NCBI GenBank assembly: GCA_002279765.1
Contig: NCCR01000009.1
Coordinates: forward strand, 1-46,355
Origin: Verrucomicrobia bacterium 12-59-8
Lineage (GTDB): Bacteria; Verrucomicrobiota; Verrucomicrobiae; Verrucomicrobiales; Verrucomicrobiaceae
Length of the DNA stretch: 46,355 nucleotides
Direction of reading: 5' to 3'
Below the pieces are notes generated by a model. The model worked only from the letters and a program-made list of their open reading frames with translations. It made no database searches and was not told the DNA's origin. Positions 8,148 through 43,008 of this stretch are shown piece by piece. Position 1 is the first letter of the stretch, and each line of letters opens with the position of its first letter. Position numbers and translations under genes: made by a program.

Positions 8148-8165
8148 ATGGGGTGTAACCCTACC
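8148..8165 (-). promoter_or_regulatory. Island palindrome, site 1 (phosphoketolase operon)
   Basis: On the plus strand the site is ATGGGGTGTAACCCTACC; read toward the gene it is GGTAGGGTTACACCCCAT. A -10-like TTTAGGCAT follows about 22 nt downstream in the minus direction. It is a member of the 14-copy set with a 5-nt gap between the G4 and C3/C4 blocks. Confidence 0.75.
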
Positions 8166-8181
8166 GGCAGGGCAAGGAGGC

Positions 8182-8199
8182 TTGACGCGATGCCGTCAA
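8182..8199. repeat. Short inverted repeat between Cu-ATPase and phosphoketolase promoter
   Basis: TTGACG and CGTCAA flank CGATGC. The repeat lies just past the Cu-ATPase stop codon and upstream of the phosphoketolase site. No U-run follows, so it is at best a weak or factor-dependent terminator. Confidence 0.35.
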
Positions 8200-8209
8200 A
8201 CCCATGCAA

Positions 8210-10357
8210 TCACAGCTTCACCTTGCGCAATCTCAGGGCGTTCGTGATGACGGAAACCGAACTTAAGCTCATCGCGGCACCGGCGATGACGGGACTGAGC
8301 AGCAGGCCAAAGAACGGATAAAGCACACCCGCCGCGATGGGGATGCCCAGGGCGTTGTAGAGGAATGCGAAAACGAGGTTCTGCCTGATGTTGTTCATTG
8401 TCGCACGGCTGAGGCGGATGGCTTGCGCAATGCCGCGCAGATCCCCTTTCACCAGCGTGATGCCCGCGCTTTGCATCGCCACATCAGTCCCGGTGCCCAT
8501 GGCGATGCCGACCTCCGCTTCGTTGAGAGCAGGCGCATCGTTGATGCCATCACCCGCCATCGCGACGTGCTGGCCTTCATCTCGCAATTTCTTCACGTGA
8601 ACGACTTTTCCGGCGGGATCGATCTCAGCCTCCACCGCATCAAGTCCCAGCTGCTTTGCCACAGCGGCTGCCGTGCGTCGGTTGTCACCCGTGAGCATGA
8701 CGATTTTCAATCCGAGCGCGTGAAGGTCCTTGATGGCTTCTGCCGTGGTGTCTTTGATCGGATCCGCGACGGCGAGAATGCCTGCCGGCTTGCCGTCAAT
8801 GGCGACAAACATCGCTGTCTTGCCGTCCTCCTGGAGTTTCACTGCGGTGGCTACGAGCGAATCAAGATCAGTCACCTTTTCATTCTTCAAGAAGTCAGGT
8901 TTGCCAACCAAGATCGAACGCCCTGCCACAGTGCCGCTGACTCCTCCTGCTGTCACCGAACGAAAGTCCTTCGCGTCTTTCAGCGTGAGTTTCTTATCCT
9001 TCGCCCCCAGCACAATCGCAGCAGCCAGCGGGTGTTCGCTGTTCTGTTCCAGCGAGGCCGCGAGACGCAGAAATTCGTTCTTCTCGAATCCTTCCGCAGG
9101 CAGTACATCCACAAGCCGCAGGTTGCCTTCGGTAAGCGTGCCCGTTTTGTCCACGACAAGCGTGGTCACATGCTCCAGTCGCTCCAGAGCCTCGGCGTTT
9201 TTCACCAGCACACCCAGCTGCGCCCCACGGCCAACGCCAACCATGATGGACATGGGAGTCGCCAGACCAAGCGCGCATGGGCAGGCGATGATGAGGACCG
9301 CAACAGCATTCACAATGGCATGTGCCAGCCTGGGCTCCGGCCCCGCCCACATCCACACAACAAACGTGATCAGCGAAACCGCCAGCACCGCGGGCACAAA
9401 AATCGCCGCTACCTTGTCCGCAAGCCCCTGGATCGGCGCACGGCTGCGCTGCGCCTCTGCCACCATCGTCACGATCTGCCCCAGCAGCGTGTCATTACCC
9501 ACACGTTCGGCCTTCATCACAAAGCTCCCCGACCCATTCACCGTGCCGCCAGTCACTTTGTAACCGACAGCTTTTTCCACCGGCAGCGGTTCGCCAGTGA
9601 TCATGGACTCCTCCACGCTGGAGTGACCATCCACGACTTCGCCATCCACCGGCACCTTGTCACCCGGAACGACGCGCAATTGATCACCAACCTGCACCTG
9701 ATCGAGCGGCACTTCCTCATCGCCGCCTGGAACCACCTTGCGCGCTGTGGGTGGCGCAAGATTCAGCAATGCCTTGATCGCACTGCCGGTGCGACTGCGC
9801 GCTCGAAGTTCCAGCACCTGCCCCAGCAGCACCAGCACCGTCACCATCCCCGCCGCTTCAAAGTAGATGCCGATCTTGCCGCCATGCTGCATCGAATGCG
9901 GGAATAAATCGGGCAGCAGCATCGCCACGGCGCTGAACACATAGGCCGCCCCCACACCAATGGCGATCAGCGTAAACATGTTCAAGTTCATCGACATGAC
10001 CGAACGCCAGCCGCGCTTGAAGAACGGCCAGCCAGCCCACCAGACCACAGGCGTCGTGAGTATGAATTGAATCCAGCGCGAAACATCACCGGTGATCCAC
10101 GGCTGCCGGCCCAGCGCCGGGATCATGTGCGCCATCGCAAGAAAGAACACCGGCAGTGTCAGCACCGCGCCGATCCAGAAGCGCAGCGTCATGTCATCGA
10201 GTTCCGCATTCTCCTCCTCATCGTCAGCCCCTGCAGGCGCATTCATCCGTTCCAGCGCCATGCCACATTTCGGGCACTCACCGGGATGGTCCTGCTGCAC
10301 TTCGGGATGCATCGGGCAGGTGTAGATGGTTTTTCCCTTCGGCTTCTTCTCAGACAT
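8210..10357 (-). CDS. Heavy-metal (Cu-type) P1B ATPase with N-terminal HMBD
   Basis: This ATP-driven exporter acts in the inner membrane, most likely on Cu(I) or Ag(I). From the ATG at 10355-10357 it has 715 residues. It starts with a heavy-metal-binding domain (YTCPMHP at 12-18, CPKCGM at 28-33). The P-ATPase core follows with TGEPLPVEK in the actuator, [12 protein letters not shown] (the CPC metal site), the phosphorylation motif DKTGTLT, a HP-locus in the nucleotide domain (SEHPLAAA) and the hinge [10 protein letters not shown]. There is no CxxC HMA domain. The frame continues upstream into a YHS domain but is broken by an in-frame TAG at 10466-10468 (separate entry), so translation probably reinitiates here. 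It is the last gene of the dodecin-DUF302 operon. Confidence 0.93.
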
Positions 10358-10549
10358 CTCTTTCTTTTGCTTCGTGCAGTCAGACGGGCGCAAAAACTCC
10401 TTCCGGCAATGCTCGCTGCAAAAGTAGAACGTCTTGCCATCGCGTTCCGCGTGGAGCGCCGTCGCCTAGTCCACCGTCATGCCGCAGACGGGGTCTTTTG
10501 TGGTTTTTTTTGTTTCGCTCACGGCGCCACTTTCTCCCTCGTTACCCAT
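10358..10549 (-). pseudogene. YHS-domain 5' portion of the Cu-ATPase, interrupted by TAG
   Basis: Read from the ATG at 10547-10549, the frame of the ATPase gives a basic leader, then DPVCGMTVD, a TAG codon (complement of 10466-10468), then [20 protein letters not shown] before joining the ATPase. DPVCGM and FCSEHC are the two halves of a YHS metal-binding domain, which often precedes the HMBD in this transporter class. The nonsense codon falls between them. A GTG at 10520-10522 is another possible start. The upstream membrane-protein gene ends only 2 bp before the ATG, which supports this as the original start of the gene. TAG also ends ordinary genes in this window (21005 and 25773), so recoding is unlikely. 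Confidence 0.75.
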
Positions 10550-10551
10550 GC

Positions 10552-11370
10552 TTACGTATCATTCGGTCCCTCAGGAACCTCGGAAATAAGCCGCTGCATG
10601 GCCACCACCTTTGAACCGATGAAGAGTACATTCATCAGATCGATCTCTTCACGGGTGGCTCCTGAGGTCCGAATCTTCAAGTCCCCGGAACCACAGCCAA
10701 GGAGCCAGTGGCGAAAAATATCATCGCGATGCTTCTCCAGTCCCATGCCCTGCGCGTTGTAGCTGTTCGAACCGCTGCCGAAAAGCATCTTGTGGGTGAG
10801 CTGTCCAGGCCTGACCTCCCAGTAGCTCAGACGATCAAAGCCAAACACGGTGAGCACCCAAGTGATGAACATCAGTGTGGAGAACCAAAAATAGGCACCC
10901 ATGGTGAGATGAATTGTGAGGTTTTCAAACCACTGGAACACCTCGTCCCACCAGCCGACGTAGGCCAGGATCACCGTAAGAAGCGCACCGCCCATGATGA
11001 CCATTCCCGAGGCCAGACCGCGCACGGAAAAATTCGTGATCATGATGATCAGGAACAGCGTGAGGAAGTAGATCACACCAAGGTTGTTGCCGGGATGGAC
11101 CCACTCCAGGACCTGCCCAGTGGCCTCCAGGTGTTGCGCTTTACCATGCCAGTAGGTGAGCGCAGCCATGACATACCCCACCACCCAGACCGGCCACCAG
11201 AACAGCAGTGAGGAGTGACTGTAGATGCGAATGCTTGATGGAGCATGAGAATGCTGATGTTCGGTTGGCAATGCCGGGCTGGCATCGTCAAGAATCGGAT
11301 GCGAATGGGCCGTGCTGGCCGCCCCGTTATGAGTCGGATCCTGGTCGTCTTGTGGGTTGTGCTCTTTCAT
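10552..11370 (-). CDS. Conserved membrane protein, unknown function
   Basis: About 272 residues from the ATG at 11368-11370. A His/Pro-rich hydrophilic N-terminus of about 55 residues is followed by four hydrophobic segments (LLFWWPVWVVGYVMAALTYW, VIYFLTLFLIIMITNFSV, GMVIMGGALLTVILAYVGWW, AYFWFSTLMFITWVLTVFGF). The soluble C-terminus contains SGSNSYNAQGMGLEKHRDD and ends in a Glu/Asp-rich region. I do not recognise a named family. The N-terminal histidines and the position directly before a Cu-type ATPase (2 bp from its original start) suggest a link to metal handling, which is an inference from context only. Confidence 0.7.
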   Translation of the reverse strand: MKEHNPQDDQDPTHNGAASTAHSHPILDDASPALPTEHQHSHAPSSIRIYSHSSLLFWWPVWVVGYVMAALTYWHGKAQHLEATGQVLEWVHPGNNLGVIYFLTLFLIIMITNFSVRGLASGMVIMGGALLTVILAYVGWWDEVFQWFENLTIHLTMGAYFWFSTLMFITWVLTVFGFDRLSYWEVRPGQLTHKMLFGSGSNSYNAQGMGLEKHRDDIFRHWLLGCGSGDLKIRTSGATREEIDLMNVLFIGSKVVAMQRLISEVPEGPNDT

Positions 11371-11460
11371 GGACGTTTGTTTTTCCTGGAATCTGCCGCC
11401 GCGAGGCATCTGCCAGGAGCAGCATTAAATGCTGTTCTCGAATTCACTGGCTTCTAGACC

Positions 11461-11847
11461 TCACGCTGCCACCGCCTCCGTCATGATCTTGATCAGAGTA
11501 GCCTCCACCTCCCTTGCCACGTCGTTCAGTCGCGGCGTGTTGAACATCCCCAGCAGAATTGTGGGCTTCAAGGTGGCGATGATCGTTTTGCCCTCTTCCT
11601 CATAGACGGAGAGGCGGCATGGCAGCGCTGTGGAGATGCTCATGTTTTCATCCAGCACCTTCCTGGCCTGCTGTGGCTGGCAGACTTCGAAGATCAGGCA
11701 CTCATGAGCAAACTCCACCCCCTTTTTCCACATGGAGTCTTTGAGATCATGCACCTGCATGACGCCGAACTTATTAGCCGGGACGGCAAGCTGCAATGCT
11801 GCCGCCGTCTCTTTCACCGTCTTGTCAGTGGATAGTTGGATTAGCAT
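11461..11847 (-). CDS. DUF302 domain protein
   Basis: This 128-residue protein has the layout of DUF302. It opens MLIQLSTDKTVKETAAALQ, then a helix, then KFGVMQVHDLKDSMWKKG, a central ECLIFEVCQPQQARKVL, and the closing ALPCRLSVYEEEGKTIIATLKPT-type strands (quoted in part). DUF302 proteins are small cytoplasmic proteins of unknown function. They are often found with metal, sulfur or stress genes, and some are fused to or adjacent to copper-resistance genes. Here it lies between the 41-aa membrane peptide and the membrane protein upstream of the Cu-ATPase. The 90-bp gap downstream (11371-11460) holds nothing recognisable. Confidence 0.88.
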   Translation of the reverse strand: MLIQLSTDKTVKETAAALQLAVPANKFGVMQVHDLKDSMWKKGVEFAHECLIFEVCQPQQARKVLDENMSISTALPCRLSVYEEEGKTIIATLKPTILLGMFNTPRLNDVAREVEATLIKIMTEAVAA

Positions 11848-11899
11848 AAATTGACTTGTTTGTTTCTGGACTTGCTTCGCATCGTCGAGGAACGAGGGG

Positions 11900-12025
11900 T
11901 TATTTTTTCGACAGCATCTTGATTGCCAGAAGAAGCACCACCACGAGCAGTGCGCCGGTGATTGACCAGGTCCACATGCCTCCGCCCATCCAGCCGTTCA
12001 TCGATCCAACGGTTTGGTTCATCAT
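11900..12025 (-). CDS. 41-residue Met/Gly/Trp-rich single-pass membrane peptide
   Basis: The frame from the ATG at 12023-12025 to the TAA at 11900-11902 encodes 41 residues. The polar start has the motif MNGWMGGGMWTW, followed by one hydrophobic helix (ITGALLVVVLLLAI) and a KMLSKK tail. Similar tiny proteins with a WMGGGMW head and one membrane helix are often seen in metal and stress clusters of other bacteria (recall, not a search). Spaced methionines could bind Cu(I), an inference supported by the Cu-ATPase in the same operon. A second ATG at 12020-12022 is equally possible. It lies 52 bp upstream of the DUF302 gene and 31 bp after the broken dodecin. Confidence 0.7.
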   Translation of the reverse strand: MMNQTVGSMNGWMGGGMWTWSITGALLVVVLLLAIKMLSKK

Positions 12026-12056
12026 AAGAAAGTTTTCTTCGATTTCATGACAACAT

Positions 12057-12265
12057 TCAGTTCTCCATGAAAGCGTCTGCTTTGAGGTTCACCTGCCAGT
12101 GTTGAATCTTTCCTTGGTCGAATTAGTAGCGCGTTTCGACGATCTGAAACCTGCACAGGCTTCGAGAGTCTTGTGCGAACGCTTGATGGCCTTATCGACG
12201 GCGTCTGCGATGGACGTGGTCGAGGTGCCGGTGAGTTCGAGGGGTTTATGAACGTGGTCTTGCAT
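12057..12265 (-). pseudogene. Dodecin, broken by a frameshift and a nonsense codon
   Basis: From the ATG at 12263-12265 the frame reads MQDHVHKPLELTGTSTTSI then ADAVDKAIKRSHKTLEAC, a clear dodecin N-terminus (HVYKxIELTGTSxxSIEDAV type). Homology then moves to another frame: RFQIVETRY, a TAA, then FDQGKIQHWQVNLKADAF and MEN before the stop. This matches the dodecin end (FEVVETRGxxxxGKxxHWQVxLK). The total is 209 nt where 210 would encode a 69-residue dodecin, so one base has been lost around 12140-12165. The TAA aligns with a normal coding position. Dodecins are dodecameric flavin-binding and storage proteins. The gene would have been the first of its operon, under the palindrome at 12376-12393. 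Confidence 0.85.
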
Positions 12266-12375
12266 ATTTGTGTTTTGGTTGATCGCTTCACCAGTGACTG
12301 CGGAGCCACCACACAGAGCTTTGAAACAGAGGCCAATTAGAGCATCTTATTTACCACCGAAGGCCGGGGTTCACC

Positions 12376-12393
12376 ATGGGGTATAACCCTACC
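12376..12393 (-). promoter_or_regulatory. Island palindrome, site 2 (dodecin / Cu-ATPase operon)
   Basis: The plus strand reads ATGGGGTATAACCCTACC. Toward the minus-strand dodecin it is GGTAGGGTTATACCCCAT, 110 nt from the dodecin ATG. A good -10-like TAAATAA lies about 22 nt past the site. It is arranged back to back with site 3. Confidence 0.75.
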
Positions 12394-12425
12394 GTTGTTT
12401 GCAGCGCTGATGTCAGCGGTTGAGG

Positions 12426-12441
12426 TGGGTGTTCACCCCAT
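12426..12441 (+). promoter_or_regulatory. Island palindrome, site 3 (mla operon)
   Basis: The site is TGGGTGTTCACCCCAT, in the opposite orientation to site 2 and pointing at the plus-strand transporter operon, 61 nt before its TTG start. Thirty-two bp separate the two sites, so this divergent region appears to carry one site for each direction. Confidence 0.7.
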
Positions 12442-12502
12442 GGCAAACCCAGGGACCGCATGGGATGCTGGTTGACCTCCTCATGTATTTAGGTGATCTC
12501 TG

Positions 12503-13648
12503 TTGCTGCGCCACTGGATGACTGCACCTTCTCATCCTCCACCCACCGCCGTCTGGCAGAAAGACGGGGAAGGAGTGATTCTGACCATCGCCGGAGACTG
12601 GCTGCGCCATGGAGCCGCCGTGAGTGTGACGGGCACGGCACCGGATCAAGCCCCCTCACGCTACCAAACGGACGCGCTGGGCACCCATGACTCCACCCTG
12701 CCAGCATTCATTCTGGCACACCTACGCACACTGAAGCCCACACCTGGCGCTCATGAACCAGCACCACTCGAGGGGCTGCCGGATAATCTGCGCAGCTTGT
12801 TGGAGCTGGCTCTTGCTGTGCCTGAAGAGGGTGGCCCCCACTCGGATGAAATACCTGCGTCTAAAATCGAGACGATCGGCATCTTTGCTCAAAACACATG
12901 GCATGGCTGCTTGTCGATGATTGACTTTGTTGGGCAGACGGTACTGTCATTCGGTCGATTATTCAAAGGCCGGGCACGCTTCCGCCGGTCGGATTTTTGG
13001 ATGACGCTGCAGCAGTGCGGCGTTGAGGCTCTGCCCATCGTTTCACTCATCAGCTTCCTCATCGGCCTCATCCTGGCGTTTGTCGGCGGTGTGCAGCTCA
13101 CGAGCTTTGGTGCCAGCCTCTACGTCGCCGATCTCGTTGGCATCTCAATGGTCCGTGAAATGGGCGTGGTCATGACCGGCATCATCATGAGTGGCCGCAC
13201 GGGTGCCGCCTTCGCTGCGCACATTGGCAGCATGAAGGCCAATGAAGAGATCGATGCCCTGCGCACCTTCGGTTTCGATCCCTTTGACTTTCTGGTGCTG
13301 CCACGAATTCTCGCCCTGGTGCTGATGATGCCCTTGCTGACAGTGTATGCCGACATCGTGGGCATCCTGGGCGGCATGCTGGTGGGGGCCTTTGCAGGCA
13401 TCCCGCCCGTGCTGTATTGGACAGAAACGGTGGCCTCGTTGACCATAACCACCGCCTCACTCGGCGTCATGAAGAGCTTCTTCTTCGGCGCAGTCATTGC
13501 CATCAGCGGCTGCATGCAGGGAATGCAGGCAGGCAATTCCTCCGCCGCTGTGGGCGAGGCCACGACGCGCGCGGTGGTCATGGCCATCACGGCTGTGATC
13601 GTTCTCGACTCCGGCTTCGCCGCCATCTTCACCATTCTGGACATCTGA
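12503..13648 (+). CDS. mlaE: MlaE-family ABC permease with N-terminal STAS-like extension
   Basis: This is the permease of a retrograde/anterograde phospholipid transporter between inner and outer membrane. Residues 1-120 form a soluble, STAS-like domain (WQKDGEGVILTIAGDW near the start), an extension common in MlaE proteins outside enterics. The MlaE domain follows with at least five hydrophobic segments and the family motifs SLISFLIGLILAFVGGVQL, GRTGAAFAAHIGSMKANEEI and EIDALRTFGFDP. The TTG at 12503 is preferred because AGGTGA (12491-12496) is well spaced from it; the ATG at 12518 would shorten the protein to 376 residues. It is the first gene of a four-gene operon. Confidence 0.9.
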   Translation: MLRHWMTAPSHPPPTAVWQKDGEGVILTIAGDWLRHGAAVSVTGTAPDQAPSRYQTDALGTHDSTLPAFILAHLRTLKPTPGAHEPAPLEGLPDNLRSLLELALAVPEEGGPHSDEIPASKIETIGIFAQNTWHGCLSMIDFVGQTVLSFGRLFKGRARFRRSDFWMTLQQCGVEALPIVSLISFLIGLILAFVGGVQLTSFGASLYVADLVGISMVREMGVVMTGIIMSGRTGAAFAAHIGSMKANEEIDALRTFGFDPFDFLVLPRILALVLMMPLLTVYADIVGILGGMLVGAFAGIPPVLYWTETVASLTITTASLGVMKSFFFGAVIAISGCMQGMQAGNSSAAVGEATTRAVVMAITAVIVLDSGFAAIFTILDI

Positions 13649-13650
13649 CC

Positions 13651-14418
13651 ATGGCTGCCAAAATAACCGTGCGCGATCTCACCATGGCCTATGGCGACTT
13701 GGTGGTGATGCATGATCTCAATTTCGAAATTCAGGACAATGACATCTTTGTTATCATGGGCGGCAGTGGCTGCGGCAAGAGCACCCTGCTGCGGCACCTC
13801 ATCGGCCTGCGCGAGCCCGCCAAAGGCTCCATTCTTTACGATGGCAAAGACTTCACCGCCACCGATCCTTCGGAGCGCGGCCCCTTCATCCAGCGGTTCG
13901 GCGTCATGTATCAATCAGGCGCGCTGTGGTCATCTCTCACCCTCGCTGAAAACATCGCCATGCCTCTGGAGGAGTCGCAGACCTGCAAGCTCCCGGCCAA
14001 GACCGTGCGCGATCTCGCATGTTACAAGCTCGCGTTGGTCGGCCTCTCGGGCTTTGAAGACTACTACCCGTCTGAGATCAGCGGTGGCATGAAAAAGCGC
14101 GCAGGCATTGCACGCGCCATGGCCTTGGACCCCGACATCCTCTTTCTGGACGAACCCAGCGCTGGCCTCGACCCCCTCAGCGCTCGCCGTTTGGACGATC
14201 TCATTCTCAGCCTTCGCGACAGCCAGGGTTCCACCATCGTCATCGTCACTCACGAACTCGCCAGCATTTTCAGCATCTCCAACAACTCCGTATTTCTCGA
14301 CACTGCCACCCACACCCAGGGCGCTCTGGGCAATCCGTCTGAACTCCGTGATCATTCGGACAATGCAGCCGTGCGTCTGTTTTTGAATCGCGGAGAAACA
14401 CCCGCAACACCACCATGA
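13651..14418 (+). CDS. mlaF: MlaF-type ABC transporter ATPase
   Basis: A 255-residue ATP-binding subunit that powers the MlaE permease. Walker A is GGSGCGKST (37-45), the Q-loop is in VMYQSGAL (86-93), the ABC signature is SEISGGMKKR (141-150, the ISGGM variant typical of Mla/Mce ATPases), Walker B is ILFLDE (163-168), and the D-loop AGLDP and the switch His in VTHEL follow. The ATG at 13651 begins 2 bp after the mlaE stop. A longer frame starting at 13417 is an out-of-frame extension through mlaE and was not used. The last codons overlap mlaD by 4 bp, which indicates translational coupling. Confidence 0.95.
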   Translation: MAAKITVRDLTMAYGDLVVMHDLNFEIQDNDIFVIMGGSGCGKSTLLRHLIGLREPAKGSILYDGKDFTATDPSERGPFIQRFGVMYQSGALWSSLTLAENIAMPLEESQTCKLPAKTVRDLACYKLALVGLSGFEDYYPSEISGGMKKRAGIARAMALDPDILFLDEPSAGLDPLSARRLDDLILSLRDSQGSTIVIVTHELASIFSISNNSVFLDTATHTQGALGNPSELRDHSDNAAVRLFLNRGETPATPP

Positions 14419-15997: not shown

Positions 15998-15998
15998 A

Positions 15999-18545: not shown

Positions 18546-18570
18546 AGCAAGAGTGCGTTCATGGCTGGCC

Positions 18571-20833: not shown

Positions 20834-20959
20834 AAGCTCAATCGAAGGACAGAGGGTGGGATATTCAGATTAACGATTCAAGCACACGACTGCTGGACTG
20901 GTGGAAGACCAGAGAATTTGAATGCAAGGCTGACTTTGCCTTACCTCTCAACAATCACC

Positions 20960-20976
20960 ATGGGGTGAAACCCGAC
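20960..20976 (-). promoter_or_regulatory. Island palindrome, site 4 (MDR-glgP operon)
   Basis: The plus strand reads ATGGGGTGAAACCCGAC. It is oriented toward the minus-strand MDR operon, 210 nt upstream of its ATG. The next gene on the other side ends at 21005 and points the same way, so the MDR operon is the only target. This is identical over all 17 bases to site 9 (34960). Confidence 0.7.
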
Positions 20977-21004
20977 TCTTAACGGGGGGCTTCTTTGCCA
21001 TTGA

Positions 21005-21894: not shown

Positions 21895-21930
21895 GGCTGG
21901 ACGCATAGTCCCCACGGCATCGGGGCCGCC

Positions 21931-21948
21931 ATGGGGTGAAACCCTACC
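21931..21948 (-). promoter_or_regulatory. Island palindrome, site 5 (DUF2934-like / Cys membrane protein)
   Basis: The site is a perfect consensus copy, ATGGGGTGAAACCCTACC on the plus strand, identical to site 11 (36841). It lies 36 nt from the start codon, with a -10-like TATGCG 23-24 nt past its edge. Confidence 0.75.
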
Positions 21949-26516: not shown

Positions 26517-26581
26517 GGTCTTGTGTTCCTGAAGTGAGTACTGAAAACAACCGACCCTGCCTTGACCGCAGCCGTTCCGAT

Positions 26582-26598
26582 ATGGGGTGTATCCCCAC
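26582..26598 (-). promoter_or_regulatory. Island palindrome, site 6 (PRC-barrel / ALDH operon)
   Basis: ATGGGGTGTATCCCCAC has a nearly symmetric G4-N5-C4 core and lies 65 nt upstream of the PRC-barrel ATG. It sits only 9 bp beyond the acetate kinase stop, in the narrow gap between the two operons. I see no strong -10 hexamer at the position favoured by other sites. Confidence 0.65.
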
Positions 26599-26607
26599 TT
26601 AGCGGAT

Positions 26608-28091: not shown

Positions 28092-28129
28092 AATGGCACA
28101 TACCCTTCATGCCATGGGTGCATGCATCC

Positions 28130-28146
28130 ATGGGGTCTTCACCCCA
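28130..28146 (-). promoter_or_regulatory. Island palindrome, site 7 (small protein-ackA operon)
   Basis: ATGGGGTCTTCACCCCA is one of the most symmetric copies: TGGGGT and ACCCCA around CTTC, with a 6-nt gap between G4 and C4. It lies 38 nt upstream of the ATG at 28089-28091. Possible -10 elements are CATGAA and TATGTG, 19-33 nt past its edge. Confidence 0.75.
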
Positions 28147-28272
28147 AACAGGGAAAGCATGAAAGTAGCCTTGTTCCTGCGGAACAACGAACCCGCTCCG
28201 CCTCGCCCACATCTCACGTCAGTCCATGCCGACTCCAATTGCGGTGCCCTCCCTTGTTGCACAGCAACAAGG
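28147..28272. other. Gap between histidine kinase end and site 7
   Basis: These 126 bp hold no gene. They contain an inexact repeat of GTAGCCTTGTTCCTGCGG and GTTGCACAGCAACAAGGCTA around 28164-28275. The TAGCCTTGTT / AACAAGGCTA pair is inverted, so the region may fold into a long stem downstream of the kinase gene and act as a terminator. Confidence 0.4.
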
Positions 28273-33122: not shown

Positions 33123-33222
33123 GAATCGATCACGAGCCCCGCCTTTTTGCCTCGGTAGCGACTGTGCCCTCAGCAGACTGCACGATCAGCCTTTTGTCGA
33201 GCGCGGTCAGCAGCGCTTCCTG

Positions 33223-33239
33223 TGGGGGAAACACCCCAT
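33223..33239. promoter_or_regulatory. Island palindrome, site 8 (between CheB-CheR and lipoprotein genes)
   Basis: TGGGGGAAACACCCCAT lies in the divergent region. It is 35 nt upstream of the plus-strand glycine-zipper lipoprotein (ACCCCAT half nearest the gene, CTAGCT as possible -10) and 100 nt upstream of the minus-strand CheB-CheR gene. It is nearly symmetric and could serve both. Confidence 0.7.
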
Positions 33240-33274
33240 GGCGATTGAGAAGAGTGTACGGCTAGCTGTCCGCC

Positions 33275-34878: not shown

Positions 34879-34959
34879 GGGTGTGTCTGGTTTGTTGTTC
34901 TGTGAGGTTATGGTTGGTTTCACAGGTCACATGGATCGTTGGCCCACGGTGCTTTCACC

Positions 34960-34976
34960 ATGGGGTGAAACCCGAC
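34960..34976 (-). promoter_or_regulatory. Island palindrome, site 9 (DUF4142 gene)
   Basis: ATGGGGTGAAACCCGAC, identical to site 4, oriented to the minus-strand DUF4142 gene 81 nt away. Between it and the next gene's stop at 35039 there are 62 bp; on the minus strand these read AAVILFVIGKVFRKQGRK after a stop, which may be a hydrophobic remnant but has no start codon. Confidence 0.7.
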
Positions 34977-35038
34977 TTGCGGCCCTGTTTGCGAAATACT
35001 TTGCCGATGACGAAAAGGATCACGGCGGCGCAGGGTGC

Positions 35039-35617: not shown

Positions 35618-35663
35618 GGTGGTTGTGGTTTTAAGATTTGATTGCTTGAATGGGTGGCTGCCC

Positions 35664-35756: not shown

Positions 35757-35826
35757 GAAGTTCAATGAGGCCCAGTGCCGACGGTTCGTAACGCCACACC
35801 ATGAGCGGCAGCACGCAGATTCACCA

Positions 35827-35843
35827 TGGAGTGTTCACCCCAT
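35827..35843. promoter_or_regulatory. Island palindrome, site 10 (divergent region)
   Basis: TGGAGTGTTCACCCCAT has one deviation in its left arm. The ACCCCAT half faces the plus-strand gene at 35878 (34 nt away), with TAGTCT as -10 candidate 22-27 nt past the edge. On the other side the GSP17M-like gene starts 209 nt away and has no other site. Confidence 0.65.
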
Positions 35844-35877
35844 TGGCGGCCGCAGCGGAAGCGCTAGTCTTGCACCC

Positions 35878-36129
35878 ATGAGTTCTCCCATTTCTCGACG
35901 ATTCAGATCCACCGGCTGCCTCTTGACGCTGCTGCAACTGCTGGCGGTTTATCTGCTGAGCCACGGTCCGGTCATGGCCTTGTATTCGAGCCAGCGCATT
36001 CATGGCTCCGTTCCCAACGCTGTCACCGCCTTCTATCAGCCCCTGCACTGGCTTTACGAGCAGACCCCTCTCGGCAGGCCGATGACCGCCTACGATGCCT
36101 GGTGGAAGCATCTGCTGCAGCAGTCCTGA
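35878..36129 (+). CDS. Small single-pass membrane protein, unknown function
   Basis: The 83-residue product has an Arg-rich start, one hydrophobic segment (CLLTLLQLLAVYLLSHGPVM, about residues 14-33) and an aromatic-rich tail (YQPLHWLYEQTPLGRPM, AYDAWWKHLLQQ). I do not know a family for it. The tail may lie on the membrane surface or in the periplasm. The start is chosen because the palindrome is 34 nt upstream and a -10-like element is correctly placed; longer upstream extension of the frame crosses the site. Confidence 0.6.
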   Translation: MSSPISRRFRSTGCLLTLLQLLAVYLLSHGPVMALYSSQRIHGSVPNAVTAFYQPLHWLYEQTPLGRPMTAYDAWWKHLLQQS

Positions 36130-36743: not shown

Positions 36744-36840
36744 GGGATGCGTTGTGTTTGTTGATGGCGTATGTGCTTGCTGCCCCTGGAGGAGAAGTCC
36801 AAAAGCGGCACATCTTTAAGTGGCTGCGACAGTTTCCACT

Positions 36841-36858
36841 ATGGGGTGAAACCCTACC
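36841..36858 (-). promoter_or_regulatory. Island palindrome, site 11 (beta-barrel gene)
   Basis: Consensus copy ATGGGGTGAAACCCTACC on the plus strand, oriented toward the minus-strand beta-barrel gene. A good -10-like TTAAAGAT lies 22-29 nt past the proximal edge. The start codon is 97 nt away, giving a leader of about 60 nt. Confidence 0.75.
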
Positions 36859-36977: not shown

Positions 36978-36995
36978 GGTAGGGTTTCACCCCAT
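36978..36995 (+). promoter_or_regulatory. Island palindrome, site 12 (kinase/regulator operon)
   Basis: GGTAGGGTTTCACCCCAT, an exact reverse complement of site 11, faces the plus-strand kinase operon that starts at 37093 (97 nt away). GATAGCTG lies 23-30 nt past its edge as a -10 candidate. Sites 11 and 12 form a divergent pair 119 bp apart. Confidence 0.75.
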
Positions 36996-37092
36996 GGCTT
37001 GTCAGCCGCCGCTGGTCGATAGCTGACTCTGAACAGCCGCACCACCACGGATCGATTCTCGATGCCCAGCCTGCGGGCCTTCCTTAACAAGC

Positions 37093-37815
37093 ATGAGTGA
37101 ATCCCAGTTGAGCCATCTTTCAGACCGCTATCTGACGGCTTTGCGCATCCATTTGGAACAGGGCCGCCAGGCGAGCCTGCTGCCAGCCCATGAGTTGGGC
37201 ACCGAGGCGGTGAACCTCGGCCTGGAAACGCTGGATCTGGCCAAGGTTCACCATCAAGCCCTGGAGCTGCTAATCCTGCCAGACTGCTCACCGGTAACAC
37301 GCGATGAGATGACCCTGCGTGCAGAGGTGTTTTTCACCGAAGCCATCGTCCCTATCGAAAAGACGCACCGCTTCGCCTTGGAAGCCCATGCCGACTTACA
37401 GCAGTTGCAGGAACGGTTGGGGCAGCGCACGATGGATTTGGCGGATTCCAATCGTGACCTCCAACAAGGCATCACGGAGCGCATGACCGCCGAGGCGGCC
37501 CTGGAGCACAGCGAACGGGTCTCCAGTCAGCTACTGCAGGAATCCCGCGTGCTGGAGCAGCAGCTCAAAGGCATGGCGCGTCACATCATGGCGGCAGATG
37601 AAGTGGAGCGGAAGATGATGAGTCTGCAACTTCATGACGACATCGGTCAGACCTTGCTGGGCATCCATGTGCGGCTGCTGACTCTGAAGGCAGAGGCGAC
37701 CGCAAAGGACGGGGTACTCAACCAGGAAATCGCCATCACGCAGCGGCTGTTGGAAGAGTCCGTCAAAACCATCAACCAGTTCGCCCACGAGTTCGGCATT
37801 CCCCATGAAATATAA
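37093..37815 (+). CDS. HisKA_3-containing protein lacking a kinase ATPase domain
   Basis: The 240 residues comprise an N-terminal helical domain (1-95; LLPAHELGTEAVNLGLETLD and FFTEAIVPIEKTHR), a coiled coil (about 95-160) and a HisKA_3 dimerisation domain with the potential phospho-acceptor His181 (MSLQLHDDIGQTLLGIHVRL). The frame ends soon after the second helix (ESVKTINQFAHEFGI), so no HATPase domain exists. The first 95 residues are closely related to those of the next kinase (37805). It could act as a phosphotransfer or dimerisation partner, or be a truncated kinase. It overlaps the next gene by 11 bp. Confidence 0.85.
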   Translation: MSESQLSHLSDRYLTALRIHLEQGRQASLLPAHELGTEAVNLGLETLDLAKVHHQALELLILPDCSPVTRDEMTLRAEVFFTEAIVPIEKTHRFALEAHADLQQLQERLGQRTMDLADSNRDLQQGITERMTAEAALEHSERVSSQLLQESRVLEQQLKGMARHIMAADEVERKMMSLQLHDDIGQTLLGIHVRLLTLKAEATAKDGVLNQEIAITQRLLEESVKTINQFAHEFGIPHEI

Positions 37816-38986
37816 ACGCACGAATCTTTCGCGGCTCTATCATGCGGCGTTGCGGCACTTCTTGAAGGAAGGCCCTGCCGCAAGCATGGTGCCAGCGCAT
37901 GAGCTGGGGCATCAGGCCATCGCCCTCGGTCTTGAGACACTGGATCTGGCGCGCATGCACGAGGTGGCCCTGGTTTCGCTGGTGCTTCCCGGCTACTCCT
38001 CCAGCACGAATGATGGTTTGATGGGGCGGGCAGGTTTGTTCTTTGCCGAAGCCATCACCCCGCTTGAGGAAACCCACCGCGGTGCGCGTGAGGCCAACGT
38101 CCACCTGAATCAAATGGTCCAGGCGCTGAGCCAGCGTACCGAGGAACTGGCAGCCTCGGTGGAGGAGCTGAAACAGGAGGTCGTGCAACGCAGGGCCATG
38201 GAGGAGTCCCTCCGCATCAGCCAGCAGACCTCCAGCGATTTGCTGAAGAAGTCGCGCGAATTGCAGGAGGATCTGCGGCAGCTCTCACGCCAGCTCTTGT
38301 CCGCGCAGGAGGAGGAGCGCAAAAAGATCAGCCGTGAGCTGCACGATGTCATCGCCCAGACGCTGACGGGCATCAATGTGCGGCTGGCGGCCTTGAACAT
38401 TGGGTCCATGGTCAGCAGCAAGGAACTCCAGAACAAGATCACCAGCACGCAGCAGATGGTGGAAAAATCGGTGGACATCGTACACCGCTTCGCGCGCGAA
38501 CTGCGCCCTTCGATGCTGGATGATCTGGGACTGATCCCGGCGCTGCAGTCCTACATGACCGGCTACATGGCGGACACCGGTATCCGCGTGACGTTGAAGG
38601 CCTTCGCCGGCATTGAACAGGCGGACGGCAACACGCGCACCGTCCTCTACCGCATCGCCCAGGAGGCGCTGACCAATGTAGCTCGCCATGCAAAGGCCAG
38701 CCAGGCAGACCTGAGTATCCAGAATCCTGACGGCGGCATCTGCATGGAAATCACCGACAACGGCTGTGGCTTTGCCGTGGAGGGAAAAGGCAGCGCGAAG
38801 AAGAACAACCGCCTCGGACTGCTAGGCATGCGCGAGCGCGTCGAGATGATCGGCGGCACCTTCTGCGTGGAGTCCTCCCCCGGCATTGGCACCACCATCC
38901 GTGTGGAGATCCCGTCAGCGAGGGAGAGCGCCCAGCACCCAAGGCATAAACCGTCCTGCGACTCAACCACCCTGGAATGCCCATGA
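37805..38986 (+). CDS. HisKA_3 sensor histidine kinase with helical input domain
   Basis: A 393-residue soluble kinase with the N-terminal helical domain shared with its upstream neighbour (MVPAHELGHQAIALGLETLD, FFAEAITPLEETHR), a coiled-coil linker (about 98-165), and HisKA_3 with His180 (KKISRELHDVIAQTLTGINV). The HATPase domain carries the N-box RIAQEALTNVARHA (283-296), DNGCGF (318-323) and the GLLGMRERVEMIGG lid. There is no PAS domain, so the helical domain is the presumed sensor. Such helical domains resemble the RsbU-type N-terminal region (tentative). It overlaps the next kinase gene by 4 bp (ATGA). Confidence 0.92.
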   Translation: MKYKRTNLSRLYHAALRHFLKEGPAASMVPAHELGHQAIALGLETLDLARMHEVALVSLVLPGYSSSTNDGLMGRAGLFFAEAITPLEETHRGAREANVHLNQMVQALSQRTEELAASVEELKQEVVQRRAMEESLRISQQTSSDLLKKSRELQEDLRQLSRQLLSAQEEERKKISRELHDVIAQTLTGINVRLAALNIGSMVSSKELQNKITSTQQMVEKSVDIVHRFARELRPSMLDDLGLIPALQSYMTGYMADTGIRVTLKAFAGIEQADGNTRTVLYRIAQEALTNVARHAKASQADLSIQNPDGGICMEITDNGCGFAVEGKGSAKKNNRLGLLGMRERVEMIGGTFCVESSPGIGTTIRVEIPSARESAQHPRHKPSCDSTTLECP

Positions 38987-40728
38987 ACACGATTGCCAAG
39001 TCACCAGCTAAAGACCCAACCGTGGCCGATGGCCTGCGAAAGCTGTGCATCCACGACGGCGCACCGCCGCAAATTCATCAGGTCATTGCCCTGGCCGGAG
39101 AGGCCTTGCGTGCCAGTGAAGCCCGCTACCACGCCCTGTTTGAGCTGGGACCGATGGCCGTGTATTGCTGTGATGCGGAGGGCGTGATTAAAGAATACAA
39201 CCGCCGTGCAGTGGAACTGTGGGGCCGCGAACCCGCACCAGGAGATGCAGATCAAACGTTTTTCGGGACGCTCAAGCTGCTGCGCTCGGATGGCAGTTAC
39301 ATACCTCATGATCGGACCCCCATGGCCGACGTGTTGAGGGGCGCATTGCCAGCGGTGTGTGACGCTGAGGTGGTCCTCGAGCGGCCCTGCGGCAAACAAG
39401 TGACGGTGATCGTGAACATTCGGCCGCAGAAAAACGAACGCGCAGAAATCACGGGCGTCATCAACTGCTTTTACGACATCACTGAACGCAGGCAGACAAT
39501 GGAATCCTTGCGTCTGGCGAATGCGGCCATGAAAGCTGCCGGGAACGCCATCTTCATCACGGATCGTGACGGCTTCATTGAATACATCAACCCGGCCTTC
39601 ACCTCGCTGACCGGTTATGAAGCCGCTGAAGCCATTGGACAAAAGGCGAGTTTGGTTCGGTCAGACACCCATGGGCAGGCTTTTTATCATGACCTCTGGC
39701 AGACGGTTCTCGCCGGCAAGATCTGGCGTGGCAAGATCACCAACCGTCACAGAAAAGGAACCATGTATGTTTCCGATCAAACCATCGCACCCGTGAAGGA
39801 TCACAACGGTGAAATCATCCACTTTGTCAGTGTCCAGGAGGACATCACCGAGCGCATGCAGGTGGAGGAGGCTCAGCATCGTGCCGAGGTGCTGGCCGCT
39901 TCCAACAGGAAGCTGGAGCTGGAAATTCTCCATCGCAAAACCGTGGAGGAGGCCCTGCGGACCAGTCAGGCAACTTCCAACGAGCTGCTGGAAAACTCAC
40001 GGCAGATGCAGGAGCAACTGCGGCAGTTGTCCCACCAGGCGTTGCTGGCGCAGGAAGAGGAGCGCAAGCGCATCAGCCGCGAGCTGCATGACGTCATCGC
40101 CCAAACCTTGACAGGCATCAATCTGCGCTTGGCGCTGCTGCAAAAAGAGACCTGCGCCAGCACTCAGGAACTCCATGAAAAAATCGCGCAGACACAGCAG
40201 CTCGTCGCAGATTCCGTGGACACGGTGCATCGCTTCGCCCGTGATCTGCGTCCGGCCATGCTGGATGATCTGGGTTTGATCCCGGCACTTGAGGCCTATT
40301 TAAAAGATTTCACTCAGCAGACGGGCCTTCAGGTCAATCTCAAGACAGATGCCGGCGTCGAAGAACTCGGCAGCACCGGTCGCACCGTGCTCTACCGCGT
40401 CGCTCAGGAGGCGCTCACCAATGTGGTCCGTCATGCCAGGGCCACCCGCGTGGATGTGAGCCTCCAGAAAACCAACGGCATCCACTGCATGGTCATCACT
40501 GACAACGGCCAAGGGTTTGCTTGGGACGACTCCCTCATGGCCAAAAACTCCAAACGGCTGGGAATGCTCGGCATGCGCGAGCGCGTCGAGATCATAGGCG
40601 GCAGGTTCCGCGTGGCTTCCGTGCCCGGCCAGCACACCACCATCCTCGTCGAGATTCCCGCTGACACAAATAACGCCAGAAATATTTCCTCTCCATATCA
40701 TGAGCCCCATTACCATCCTGCTGGCTGA
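38983..40728 (+). CDS. PAS-PAS HisKA_3 sensor histidine kinase
   Basis: From the ATG at 38983 it has 581 residues. A PAS domain spans about 45-170 (ends FYDITERRQTME), a second about 178-292 (FITDRDGFIEYINPAFTSLT, ends VQEDITERMQVE). A coiled coil leads to HisKA_3 with His369 (KRISRELHDVIAQTLTGINL), then HATPase (RVAQEALTNVVRHA, TDNGQGFAW, GMLGMRERVEIIGG). Kinase cores of this and the 37805 protein are very similar, indicating tandem duplication. Cys66 and Cys67 in AVYCCDAEG of the first PAS core could be redox-active. Its 3' end overlaps the truncated regulator gene by 29 bp. Confidence 0.93.
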   Translation: MNTIAKSPAKDPTVADGLRKLCIHDGAPPQIHQVIALAGEALRASEARYHALFELGPMAVYCCDAEGVIKEYNRRAVELWGREPAPGDADQTFFGTLKLLRSDGSYIPHDRTPMADVLRGALPAVCDAEVVLERPCGKQVTVIVNIRPQKNERAEITGVINCFYDITERRQTMESLRLANAAMKAAGNAIFITDRDGFIEYINPAFTSLTGYEAAEAIGQKASLVRSDTHGQAFYHDLWQTVLAGKIWRGKITNRHRKGTMYVSDQTIAPVKDHNGEIIHFVSVQEDITERMQVEEAQHRAEVLAASNRKLELEILHRKTVEEALRTSQATSNELLENSRQMQEQLRQLSHQALLAQEEERKRISRELHDVIAQTLTGINLRLALLQKETCASTQELHEKIAQTQQLVADSVDTVHRFARDLRPAMLDDLGLIPALEAYLKDFTQQTGLQVNLKTDAGVEELGSTGRTVLYRVAQEALTNVVRHARATRVDVSLQKTNGIHCMVITDNGQGFAWDDSLMAKNSKRLGMLGMRERVEIIGGRFRVASVPGQHTTILVEIPADTNNARNISSPYHEPHYHPAG

Positions 40729-40954
40729 AGACCACCGCCTCATCCCCGAAGGTCTGCGCGACCTGCTGCAGATAGAAGCAAACATCCGGGTCATCGGTGA
40801 AGCCGAGAACGGTCGCCAGACCGTGGCTTACGGCGCATCGGGCTACCTCGTCAAACAAACCGACACGCTCCTGCTGCCTTCTGCGATTCGCGGGGCACAT
40901 CACGGCTCCCCCTTCATCTGCCCCAGCAAACTCACCAGCACGACATGTCCATGA
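40700..40954 (+). pseudogene. NarL-type response regulator with internal deletion
   Basis: The 84-residue frame starts like the regulator at 41367 (SPITILLAEDHRLIPEGLRD, then AENGRQTV) and then jumps straight to AYGASGYLVKQTDTLLLPSA. Aligned with that paralogue about 54 residues are missing, including the phospho-acceptor Asp, and the frame is kept. After AIRGAHHG it ends without a helix-turn-helix. The product cannot form a receiver fold, so it is probably a remnant kept in frame by translational coupling (29-bp overlap with the kinase before, 10-bp overlap with the next regulator). Confidence 0.8.
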
Positions 40955-41370
40955 AGCCCATCACCGTCCTGATCGCGGATGACCACACCATCGTCCGTGA
41001 AGGACTGCGTGCCCTGCTCTCCCTCGAGACTGACATGGAAGTCGTCGGAGAGGCCGCAAACGGGCATCAGGCCGTCGCCTTCGCCAACAAGCTCGCCCCG
41101 GATGTCGTCGTCATGGATCTCTCCATGCCGCTGCTAAGCGGTCTGGACGCCATATCACGGATTCGGGAATGCACGCCAGCCTCCACCAAGATACTGGTAC
41201 TTTCATCTTACGACGAGCACGACTACGTTCAGCAAGCCAGATCGCTGGGGGCCTCGGGATATTTGGTCAAGCAAAGCGACGCGCACGCGCTCGCCACTGC
41301 GATCCGCGAAATTCATCAAGGCCACGTTTACTTCAAGCCCATTCAACCCGCCACCCTGCAACACCCATGA
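40945..41370 (+). CDS. NarL-type receiver domain without DNA-binding domain
   Basis: The 141 residues form a complete receiver: acidic pocket ADDH (11-14), phospho-acceptor Asp58 (VVVMDLSMPLLSG), the Thr/Ser switch in LVLSSYDEHDY, and conserved Lys109 (GYLVKQ). It ends FKPIQPATLQHP just where a LuxR-type helix-turn-helix would follow. By sequence it is a NarL/FixJ receiver that lost its output domain. It may serve as a phosphate sink or a competing partner for the kinases upstream. It overlaps the full regulator gene by 4 bp. Confidence 0.88.
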   Translation: MSMKPITVLIADDHTIVREGLRALLSLETDMEVVGEAANGHQAVAFANKLAPDVVVMDLSMPLLSGLDAISRIRECTPASTKILVLSSYDEHDYVQQARSLGASGYLVKQSDAHALATAIREIHQGHVYFKPIQPATLQHP

Positions 41371-42044
41371 GTTCCATCACCGTCATGCTCGCTGAAGACC
41401 ACCAGATCGTCCGCGAAGGACTACGGGCCATGTTAAATCTGGAAACTGACATCAAGGTCATCAGCGAAGTTGAGAATGGCCGGCAGGCCGTGGAACTCGT
41501 CGCCAAAGCGCGACCCGACGTTGTGGTCATGGACATCGCCATGCCGCTGCTCAACGGCATGGAGGCCACGCGGCAGATCCTCCAGGCTTTTCCCGGCACC
41601 AAGGTGCTGATTCTCTCCGCCCACAGCGATGATGCCTACGTCGCCATGGTCATGGCCATCGGTGCTTCGGGCTATCTCATCAAACAAACCGCCGCACACG
41701 TGCTGCCTGAGGCGATTCGTGCCGTCCATCAAGGGAAGACCTATTTCAGCCCCATCATTGCCAAACGCCGCAATCACCAAAAGCAGAAGGAACGTGACCA
41801 GGGCGAACTGCCGGGCAAGGCCGCGCCCACTCTCAGCGCACGGGAGATGGAGGTGCTCCAGCTCATTGCGGAAGGTAAGGCCAACAAGGAAACGGCGGAT
41901 GTGCTGCATATCAGCGTCAAGACGGTCGAAAAGCACCGCCAGAGCCTGATGGACAAGCTCAACATCCACGACACCGCTGGCCTTACCCGCTACGCCATTT
42001 CCACGGGCATCATTGAGAACAGCGTGCAGGTCACGATTGTCTGA
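41367..42044 (+). CDS. NarL/FixJ response regulator with LuxR-type helix-turn-helix
   Basis: The 225-residue protein is the only complete DNA-binding regulator in the window. Receiver: acidic AEDH (9-12), phospho-acceptor Asp56 (VVVMDIAMPLLNG), Lys106 (GYLIKQ). A basic linker (about 133-152, RRNHQKQKERDQ) precedes the LuxR-type HTH (156-212; LSAREMEVLQLIAEGKANKE, VKTVEKHRQSLMDKLNI). HisKA_3 kinases are the known partners of this class, and three such genes lie directly upstream in the same operon. The operon carries the island palindrome (36978), so the protein is the leading candidate to bind all 14 copies and to control its own synthesis (inference). Confidence 0.95.
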   Translation: MSSITVMLAEDHQIVREGLRAMLNLETDIKVISEVENGRQAVELVAKARPDVVVMDIAMPLLNGMEATRQILQAFPGTKVLILSAHSDDAYVAMVMAIGASGYLIKQTAAHVLPEAIRAVHQGKTYFSPIIAKRRNHQKQKERDQGELPGKAAPTLSAREMEVLQLIAEGKANKETADVLHISVKTVEKHRQSLMDKLNIHDTAGLTRYAISTGIIENSVQVTIV

Positions 42045-42059
42045 ACCCGCGGAGGTTTC

Positions 42060-42076
42060 TTGGGGTGAAGACCCCA
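42060..42076 (+). promoter_or_regulatory. Island palindrome, site 13 (DUF2934-CheB operon)
   Basis: TGGGGTGAAGACCCCAT is a near-perfect palindrome (TGGGGT, 4-nt spacer, ACCCCA). It begins 15 bp after the regulator's stop and lies 38 nt before the ATG at 42115. TATCCG, 12-17 nt past the edge, is the closest -10-like sequence and is nearer than at other sites. Confidence 0.75.
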
Positions 42077-42114
42077 TGGTGAACTCTGTATCCGCATTGG
42101 ATGCTGGAGGTCCC

Positions 42115-42339
42115 ATGACACATAGCCTAGCATCCGAAGCGCGTCATCCTCCAGCCGCAGGTCACGACTCCGTGACGACACGATTGCCGCAGGAAGCCTT
42201 TGTTCCTGCCGCAGATGCGGTGGCACGCCGGGCCTACCTCTACTTTGAAAACCACGGCGTTGCCAACGGCCGTGATTTGCAGGACTGGCTCCAGGCCGAG
42301 GCAGAACTGACCGCAGAGTGGAAGATCGCCGGCAAGTGA
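42115..42339 (+). CDS. DUF2934 domain protein
   Basis: From the ATG at 42115 it encodes 74 residues. A GGAGGT Shine-Dalgarno sequence (42106-42111) supports this start over the longer frame. Residues about 30-68 match DUF2934 well: VARRAYLYFENHGVANGRDL then QDWLQAEAELTAEW. This short helical domain often occurs in small proteins of environmental bacteria and has no known function. It is followed by a stand-alone CheB gene 20 bp downstream. Confidence 0.85.
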   Translation: MTHSLASEARHPPAAGHDSVTTRLPQEAFVPAADAVARRAYLYFENHGVANGRDLQDWLQAEAELTAEWKIAGK

Positions 42340-42359
42340 GCACCGGAACCATATGCTAC

Positions 42360-42962
42360 ATGAATGCCCCTCCCTGTGAACCGGCCCAGAGCGTCATTGC
42401 CATGGCCGCCTCAGCCGGCGGCTTGAAGGCTTTATCCGTCATTCTGGGCGGCCTGCCGGCAGGTTTCCCGGCCGCCATCGCCATCGTGATGCATCTTTCG
42501 CCCGTCCACAAAAGCCTCCTGGCAGAGATTTTAAGCAGCCGCTCGCTGTTGAAAGTTCAGCAGGCGCAGACCGGCGATATCCTGTGTCATTCGAATGTGT
42601 TTGTCGCCCCACCCAATCAGCACATGTCCGTCGTCAAAAGCGGTCGCATTAAGCTCTCCTCCCCAGATGCGGCAAAAGTTCATTTTGCCCGTCCGTCCGC
42701 CGAGCCGTTGTTTGCCTCCGTGGCGGCCGTTTATCAAACGCATGCCGTTGCGGTGGTTCTCACTGGAGGCGATGGTGATGGCTCATTCGGAGTGCAGATC
42801 ATAAAAGCAAACGGCGGAAAGGTCATCGCTCAGGACCGGCCCACGTCGCGGGATTTCAGCATGCCGCAGACTTCGATCGCCACCGGCGATGTCGATTTCA
42901 TCCTTCCGCTGAACGAGATTGCCCCGATGCTGATCGAGTTGATTCTTCCAGGTCAGGCGTGA
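42360..42962 (+). CDS. Stand-alone CheB-type methylesterase domain
   Basis: The 200-residue protein consists of a CheB catalytic domain only. Ser in MAASAGGLKALS, His in IVMHLSPVHKSLL and Asp in VVLTGGDGDGSFGVQIIKA correspond to the catalytic triad; VFVAPPNQHMSV is the conserved loop. LTGGDGDG replaces the usual LTGMGxDG. It has no receiver domain and no partner receptor genes nearby, so a chemotaxis role is unlikely. Together with the CheB-CheR fusion at 30402 it suggests protein-methylation control of an unknown transducer. The ATG is at 42360. Confidence 0.88.
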   Translation: MNAPPCEPAQSVIAMAASAGGLKALSVILGGLPAGFPAAIAIVMHLSPVHKSLLAEILSSRSLLKVQQAQTGDILCHSNVFVAPPNQHMSVVKSGRIKLSSPDAAKVHFARPSAEPLFASVAAVYQTHAVAVVLTGGDGDGSFGVQIIKANGGKVIAQDRPTSRDFSMPQTSIATGDVDFILPLNEIAPMLIELILPGQA

Positions 42963-42991
42963 AGCCTTGGAAGGCCGCACCTGTGTGTGAA

Positions 42992-43008
42992 TGGGTAGTA
43001 CACCCCAT
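42992..43008 (+). promoter_or_regulatory. Island palindrome, site 14 (kinase 43045 operon)
   Basis: TGGGTAGTACACCCCAT faces the kinase gene, whose ATG is 36 nt away. The left arm is TGGGT, a weaker half-site. No clear TA-rich -10 is seen at the usual place (CAGACACC). Confidence 0.65.

Follow-up and report, generated by a model that had tools for sequence, protein, structure and literature searches.

The 46,355-nt stretch analyzed here ("the window"; contig NCCR01000009.1 of the GenBank assembly GCA_002279765.1, Verrucomicrobia bacterium 12-59-8) carries 14 copies of a short imperfect palindrome, and these are in all likelihood the promoter operators of the two-component response regulator (RR) encoded at 41367–42044, marking a conserved and autoregulated stress regulon. 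As judged by sequence comparison, one two-component regulator very probably turns on stress and energy genes together via these shared sites. Verrucomicrobiota are frequent inhabitants of soil, lakes, and guts, and, to our knowledge, how this phylum regulates its genes has been little explored. The regulator family is known, while this member appears to be undescribed in the literature searched. A full-text literature search, judged by title and the start of the abstract and with most subscription journals outside its coverage, gave no description of the operator or the regulon, and a search with the core strings of the site matched only an unrelated fimbrial subunit.

Putative operator sites in the window

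A 20-bp matrix built from the 14 window sites recovers, at a threshold of 18 bits, exactly these 14 sites in the window, all of which lie between genes called by our own caller, and gave no match in 30 shuffles under a dinucleotide model. With a leave-one-out matrix, each omitted site still ranked within the top 14 of the window. The coordinates of the palindromes had been put forward by an earlier reading of this DNA (the "original prediction"), and all 14 are correct; their intergenic position, also claimed there, was borne out with independent gene calls. The sites are as follows, the strand being that of the gene served.

8146..8165, minus strand: operator site 1, upstream of the phosphoketolase/DUF2254 unit 4345-8076
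12374..12393, minus strand: operator site 2, facing the P-type ATPase unit 8210-11847, 528 bp off; divergent pair with site 3
12424..12443, plus strand: operator site 3, upstream of the mla-type transporter unit 12575-15997
20958..20977, minus strand: operator site 4, upstream of the oxidoreductase/flavin reductase/ribose isomerase/phosphorylase unit 15999-20749
21929..21948, minus strand: operator site 5, 36 bp from the start of 21613-21894 (candidate leaderless)
26580..26599, minus strand: operator site 6, upstream of unit 22029-26516 (aldehyde dehydrogenase, SDR, YjeF-type)
28128..28147, minus strand: operator site 7, near-symmetric, 38 bp from the start of unit 26608-28091 with acetate kinase
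33222..33241, plus strand: operator site 8, 35 bp from the start of the small lipoprotein gene 33275-33496 (glycine-zipper-like, below the NCBIfam cut-off)
34958..34977, minus strand: operator site 9, upstream of the DUF4142 gene 34351-34878
35826..35845, plus strand: operator site 10, near-symmetric, 34 bp from the small open reading frame (ORF) 35878-36129 (start by eye); back face to 35039-35680
36839..36858, minus strand: operator site 11, upstream of the beta-barrel-like gene 36213-36743
36978..36997, plus strand: operator site 12, upstream of the kinase/response-regulator operon 37093-42044 (putatively autoregulatory)
42060..42079, plus strand: operator site 13, near-symmetric, just 3' of the RR gene; upstream of the DUF2934 gene 42184-42339 and the CheB gene 42318-42962
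42991..43010, plus strand: operator site 14, 36 bp from the start of the PAS-HisKA kinase 43045-44223, followed by the receiver 44223-44687

When the sites are aligned on their strong half, ATGGGGT is invariant in 14/14 and a C is found at position −2 in 12/14, unlike the second half, which is looser and variable. Orientation is uniform, as all 14 sites read GGTAGGGTTTCACCCCATGG toward the gene, including the divergent pairs 12376/12426 and 36841/36978, and the conserved half is the gene-proximal one (194 sites of the window and its relatives pooled). A single consensus for all copies, as originally proposed, was rejected in favor of two site classes, one near-symmetric (ATGGGGTGWWCACCCCAT) and one asymmetric (ATGGGGTGWAACCCTACC).

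Short, G/C-rich imperfect palindromes recurring between genes could also be a REP-like mobile or structural repeat, or an RNA hairpin or terminator, with no regulatory role. Such an origin is scarcely credible for these sites. Their 50-bp flanks are dissimilar (mean ungapped identity 26–28%, highest pair 44%), and therefore no unit larger than the palindrome is repeated and no REP-like repeat is present, a possibility that the original prediction had itself raised. In addition, the sites are uniformly oriented, have a fixed −10 spacing in relatives, lie upstream of the predicted transcription start, and follow the presence of one regulator gene, and a search of Rfam gave no match at gathering scores. 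A search of a plasmid collection in near mode left window positions 36995–42100 unmatched. The tandem repeats of the window form a single array, reported in two rows (21-bp and 84-bp), at 30899–31062 inside the CheB/CheR-PAS gene.

Sites in related loci and genomes

RR-anchored loci were taken as the best 80 of 537 from a contig scan with the RR; by title they are mostly Verrucomicrobiota metagenome-assembled genomes (MAGs), and a few are labelled Lentisphaerae, Kiritimatiellae, Phycisphaerae, or Omnitrophica. With the threshold at 18 bits, the window matrix gave 235 matches spread over 67 of the 80 loci, and 231 of these matches are intergenic; ten column-shuffled matrices gave a mean of 0.4 matches over the same loci. 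The intergenic matches have a gene on the expected side only in 124 cases, on both sides in 76, on the wrong side only in 15, and on neither side in 8, with the remaining 8 at edges.

A strict exact pattern, GGKKWWCACCCCATRG, was applied to whole genomes and was found in 29 of 32 RR-bearing genomes chosen from the 80 loci (217 oriented matches, palindromes being counted twice; mirror control 0). For nine related genomes of our choosing, the surroundings of every exact match were collected as 60 stretches, 29.5% of whose DNA is noncoding. All 74 oriented matches in this set are intergenic and 67 face the next gene, contrary to the equal frequency inside genes that the original prediction had named as a possible objection. 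Among 288 genomes drawn from the phylum, 32 carry the exact site and one carries its mirror control. Two of the more distant matches belong to other phyla, and in genomes drawn from these the site is present in 9/149 (control 2), which is weak evidence, and in 6/97 (control 0).

The view of the palindromes as defining one regulon across the island holds with respect to shared regulation, which is strongly supported, but the regulon extends beyond the island. Sites also cluster in stretches of about 33–46 kb elsewhere (G016:C64, G031:C15, G531:C14, and G133:C24), and islands of this kind thus recur.

Promoter geometry

The arrangement of sites and promoters was analyzed with a set of 194 sites that face a gene, of which 13 belong to the window and the others to the RR-anchored loci. 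The hexamer TANNNT begins 20 nt (52 sites) or 21 nt (17 sites) after the site in 69/194, compared with 0–6 at the other listed offsets past the site; the base at +21 is A in 71% and that at +25 is T in 68%, and a strict TANNNT is found at +19 to +22 in 76/194. The exact matches of the nine-genome set have TANNNT at +19 to +22 in 60 of 74 cases and NANNNT in 70. If this hexamer is taken as the −10 element, the dyad would be centered at about −43.5 relative to start sites that are predicted rather than mapped; assuming a 17-bp spacer, the T-R-G that ends the site would coincide with positions 1–3 of a −35 hexamer. In a class II activator promoter, the activator site is centered near −41.5 over a poor −35 element, with the −10 element at a fixed spacing. 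A dyad at about −43.5 with its end on the −35 position would, given the predicted start sites, be consistent with class II activator geometry in the relatives.

The same RR might instead act as a repressor that blocks the −35 region, as the site overlaps the presumed −35 position, where repressors also bind. We regard repression as quite improbable because there is no separate −35 consensus and the end of the site takes its place, because a fixed −10 distance is needed by an activator and not by a repressor, and because stress-type targets would usually be induced.

The geometry also bears on the form of the transcripts. An ATG lies 29–38 nt after the site in 40/194, with peaks of 14 at 33 nt and 12 at 34 nt (the caller favors ATG), such that the transcripts of these genes would have little or no leader. 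Five window sites are 34–38 bp from an ATG (21931, 28130, 33223, 35827, and 42992, the start at 35878 being set by eye). By a crude pattern, a Shine-Dalgarno sequence was seen in 10/40 candidate leaderless genes versus 7/33 other genes, a comparison that does not help to tell the two groups apart.

The response regulator and its linkage to the site

The operon downstream of site 12 consists of the following genes.

37093..37815, plus strand: HisKA_3 protein, first gene of the RR operon; weak RsbU_N-like match (24.8 bits versus a cut-off of 25.5) and no recognized ATPase domain
37805..38986, plus strand: HisKA_3-HATPase kinase
38983..40728, plus strand: PAS-PAS-HisKA_3-HATPase kinase
40951..41370, plus strand: receiver-only response regulator
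41367..42044, plus strand: NarL/FixJ-type RR, the proposed activator binding the sites (Response_reg 2.4e-27, GerE 4.4e-19)

Rather than being a full kinase, the product of 37093–37815 may serve as a partner in phosphotransfer or dimer formation; RsbU_N is a domain known from the control of SigB. Neither an oxygen-sensing nor a light-sensing domain could be established. With a receiver and a LuxR-type (GerE) helix-turn-helix domain, the protein encoded at 41367–42044 has the makeup of a NarL/FixJ response regulator. A Pfam scan of 40 window proteins recognized a DNA-binding domain in this protein only. Of the 102 NCBIfam models that matched it, the 25 shown all stay below their cut-offs, the best of them being MctR (188.9 bits versus 300). 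The nearest relatives of the RR share 93% identity with it in Verrucomicrobia MAGs and 94% in proteins labelled Prosthecobacter sp., and the core of the recognition helix, KT[VI][ED][KR]HR, is found in 80/80 RR loci.

Of the 288 genomes drawn from the phylum, 42 have an RR match at 1e-60 or better. Both the site and the RR are present in 26 genomes, the site only in 6, the RR only in 16, and neither in 240 (odds ratio 65, p = 1.5e-20), whereas the Crp family, the only other family tested, is not associated with the site (16/32 versus 102/256, odds ratio 1.5, p = 0.34). Among the 26 genomes with both, 14 have a listed site within 10 kb of the RR match, where about 0.7 would be expected. The site stands directly upstream of the first gene of the RR operon in 25/32 loci and within 300 bp of the RR gene in 25/80, and a matrix-free count of 9-mers upstream of the first genes of the RR operon yielded pieces of the site as the commonest words (best 12/32; shuffles at most 4). 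Shared regulation by the 41367–42044 regulator, as originally proposed, is thus strongly supported by intergenic and oriented sites, a fixed −10 distance in relatives, phylum-wide co-occurrence and linkage, and a site kept before the RR's own operon. A near-symmetric site right after the RR gene is seen at 42060 and also at L001:10692, L003:10704, L009:10696, and L018:5553.

Several observations weigh against this assignment. The −10 element is weak in the window, where NANNNT is found at +19 to +21 in 8/14 sites and strict TANNNT in 1/14, and the exact pattern matches only 6/14 window sites. No match at 16 bits was found in 11/80 RR loci, several of which are short. The co-occurrence statistic is uncorrected for kinship and genome size, and genome completeness is unstated. 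Six of the 32 site-bearing genomes have no RR match at 1e-60; in one of them (G287) a partial RR match (residues 117–224, 62% identical) adjoins the sites, two (G306 and G156) have more distant RR relatives only, and the other three have none at 1e-25. Lastly, 16 RR-bearing genomes have no exact site. When one mismatch is allowed, 14 of these 16 match (50 matches), with the mirror control then at 9, and in five of them (G142, G064, G024, G298, and G218) such a site lies 29–163 bp from the RR gene.

Genomes with a site and no clear RR, and those with the RR and no exact site, could be explained if the sites belonged to another regulator, either an unlinked transcription factor or an alternative sigma factor, with the RR merely one of its targets; the site before the RR operon would likewise make the RR look like a target. 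This alternative is unlikely in light of the very strong co-occurrence of the site with the RR, the unassociated Crp control, and the lack of a second recognized DNA-binding domain among the 40 scanned window proteins. Moreover, a G-rich dyad is a usual shape for NarL/FixJ-type dimers, and a sigma factor would have no need for a dyad about 43 bp upstream in addition to an ordinary TANNNT.

Genes served by the sites

The palindromes were said to precede nearly every transcription unit, and each of the 14 does face a gene, although some gene assignments have changed. The site at 33223 is directed at the small lipoprotein gene at 33275, and that at 35827 at the small ORF at 35878; consequently, for the CheB/CheR-kinase unit 28273–33065 and the 35039–35680 gene, only the back face of a palindrome remains. 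The site at 12376, assigned to a Cu-ATPase, faces the P-type ATPase unit as expected, but at a distance of 528 bp from the first called gene of the unit. The gap itself (11848–12375) might be taken up by a long leader, encode a small RNA, or contain a small gene that escaped the caller. The site at 42060 is upstream of the CheB gene, but the small DUF2934 gene 42184–42339 comes first. The first gene of the site 6 unit (25773–26516) is PRC-barrel-like as judged by eye from its likeness to 3288–4055, not by profile scan. The PRC-barrel gene 3288–4055 has no site, even at 9 bits.

Targets identified in the window include phosphoketolase, carbohydrate phosphorylase, ribose/galactose isomerase, aldehyde dehydrogenase, MlaE, acetate kinase, CheB/CheR, DUF2934, heavy-metal P-type ATPase, and DUF4142. 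More broadly, 126 genes downstream of sites were scanned from 149 candidates of at least 60 aa with 18-bit sites, with the kinase cluster limited to 12; the other 23 candidates were further cluster members, two genes of great length, and a number of short genes. The Pfam families found among them, with close relatives among loci counted separately and 25 of 96 families shown, include BON (9), PRC-barrel (8), HisKA_3 (5), RsbU_N (5), CheB (4), ferritin-like (4), CsbD (4), DUF2934 (4), CheR (3), fasciclin (3), dodecin (3), OsmC (2), and DUF892 (2). The 59 targets of the nine genomes include BON (6), receiver (4), and ice-binding-like (3) domains (25 of 49 families shown), and one each of phosphoketolase, Hsp70, P-type ATPase, ferritin-like, OsmC, CsbD, and DUF892. 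This content resembles that of general-stress and low-energy responses, and any signal named from it is a guess.

Proposed mechanism

A dimer of the phosphorylated NarL/FixJ-type RR would bind each site, centered about 43 bp upstream of the transcription start, and HisKA_3 kinases from the RR's own operon would feed the RR. The conserved promoter-proximal half (ACCCCAT-RG) would abut and partly replace the −35 element, with the −10 hexamer at a fixed distance beyond the site; with a half-site in place of the −35 element, RNA polymerase would be recruited in the manner of class II activation. As the RR operon carries a site, the RR would also be subject to feedback. The regulated genes would be those for energy reserves, fermentation, the envelope, and general stress, and the regulon is probably common to many Verrucomicrobiota and sparser in the two other sampled phyla.

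We tentatively suggest, with somewhat more doubt than conviction, that the system may be the general stress or energy-limitation response of Verrucomicrobiota, filling the role of RpoS, SigB, or EcfG, with partly leaderless transcripts and input through an RsbU_N-like kinase partner. In practical terms, one short word and its −10 spacing would allow promoters, probable transcription starts, and the targets of one regulator to be predicted across many uncultured genomes, and would offer a direct route to the functions of unclear stress genes such as BON, PRC-barrel, CsbD, DUF2934, DUF4142, and others.

Comparison with known systems

The palindrome had been likened to the binding site of DosR. 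The DosR/DevR dormancy regulon of Mycobacterium tuberculosis comprises about 50 hypoxia-induced genes, and the DosR box is given as TTSGGGACTWWAGTCCCSAA (PMC2275270). Both systems have a NarL-type RR, the window RR matching the DevR structure 3c3w with an E-value of 5.7e-25, and both have a G-rich dyad of 18–20 bp, in which GGG is at the same distance from the center in the near-symmetric class (counted by hand). On the other hand, the half-site is GGGGTG here and GGGAC in DosR, and neither ATGGGGTGWWCACCCCAT nor ATGGGGTGWAACCCTACC conforms to the TTSGGGACTWWAGTCCCSAA box. The DNA-contact residues of the DosR recognition helix are K179, K182, and N183 (PMC5999986), and these align with K, E, and K of the window RR in the alignment to 3c3w. 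DosR-type recognition was thus rejected, since the RR has Glu and Lys at K182 and N183 and the box differs too; what remains of the likeness is the shared layout. The systems also differ in their kinases, which here are of the HisKA_3 type and carry PAS or weak RsbU_N-like domains, and in their hosts, Verrucomicrobiota rather than Actinomycetota.

A similar kind of gene content is described for the low-oxygen-activated (lxa) locus of Burkholderia cenocepacia, with 50 metabolism, stress, and regulatory genes co-induced at low oxygen, the likeness being one of described content. Six universal stress proteins are described for lxa, whereas none was recognized among the 40 window proteins scanned, and no operator is given in the descriptions of lxa consulted. 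The RR shares its receiver and GerE domains with the VraR/DesR/NarL/FixJ family; its solved structural relatives include VraR, DesR, DevR/DosR, and NarL, and VraR is the nearest solved structure (E-value 1.6e-42).

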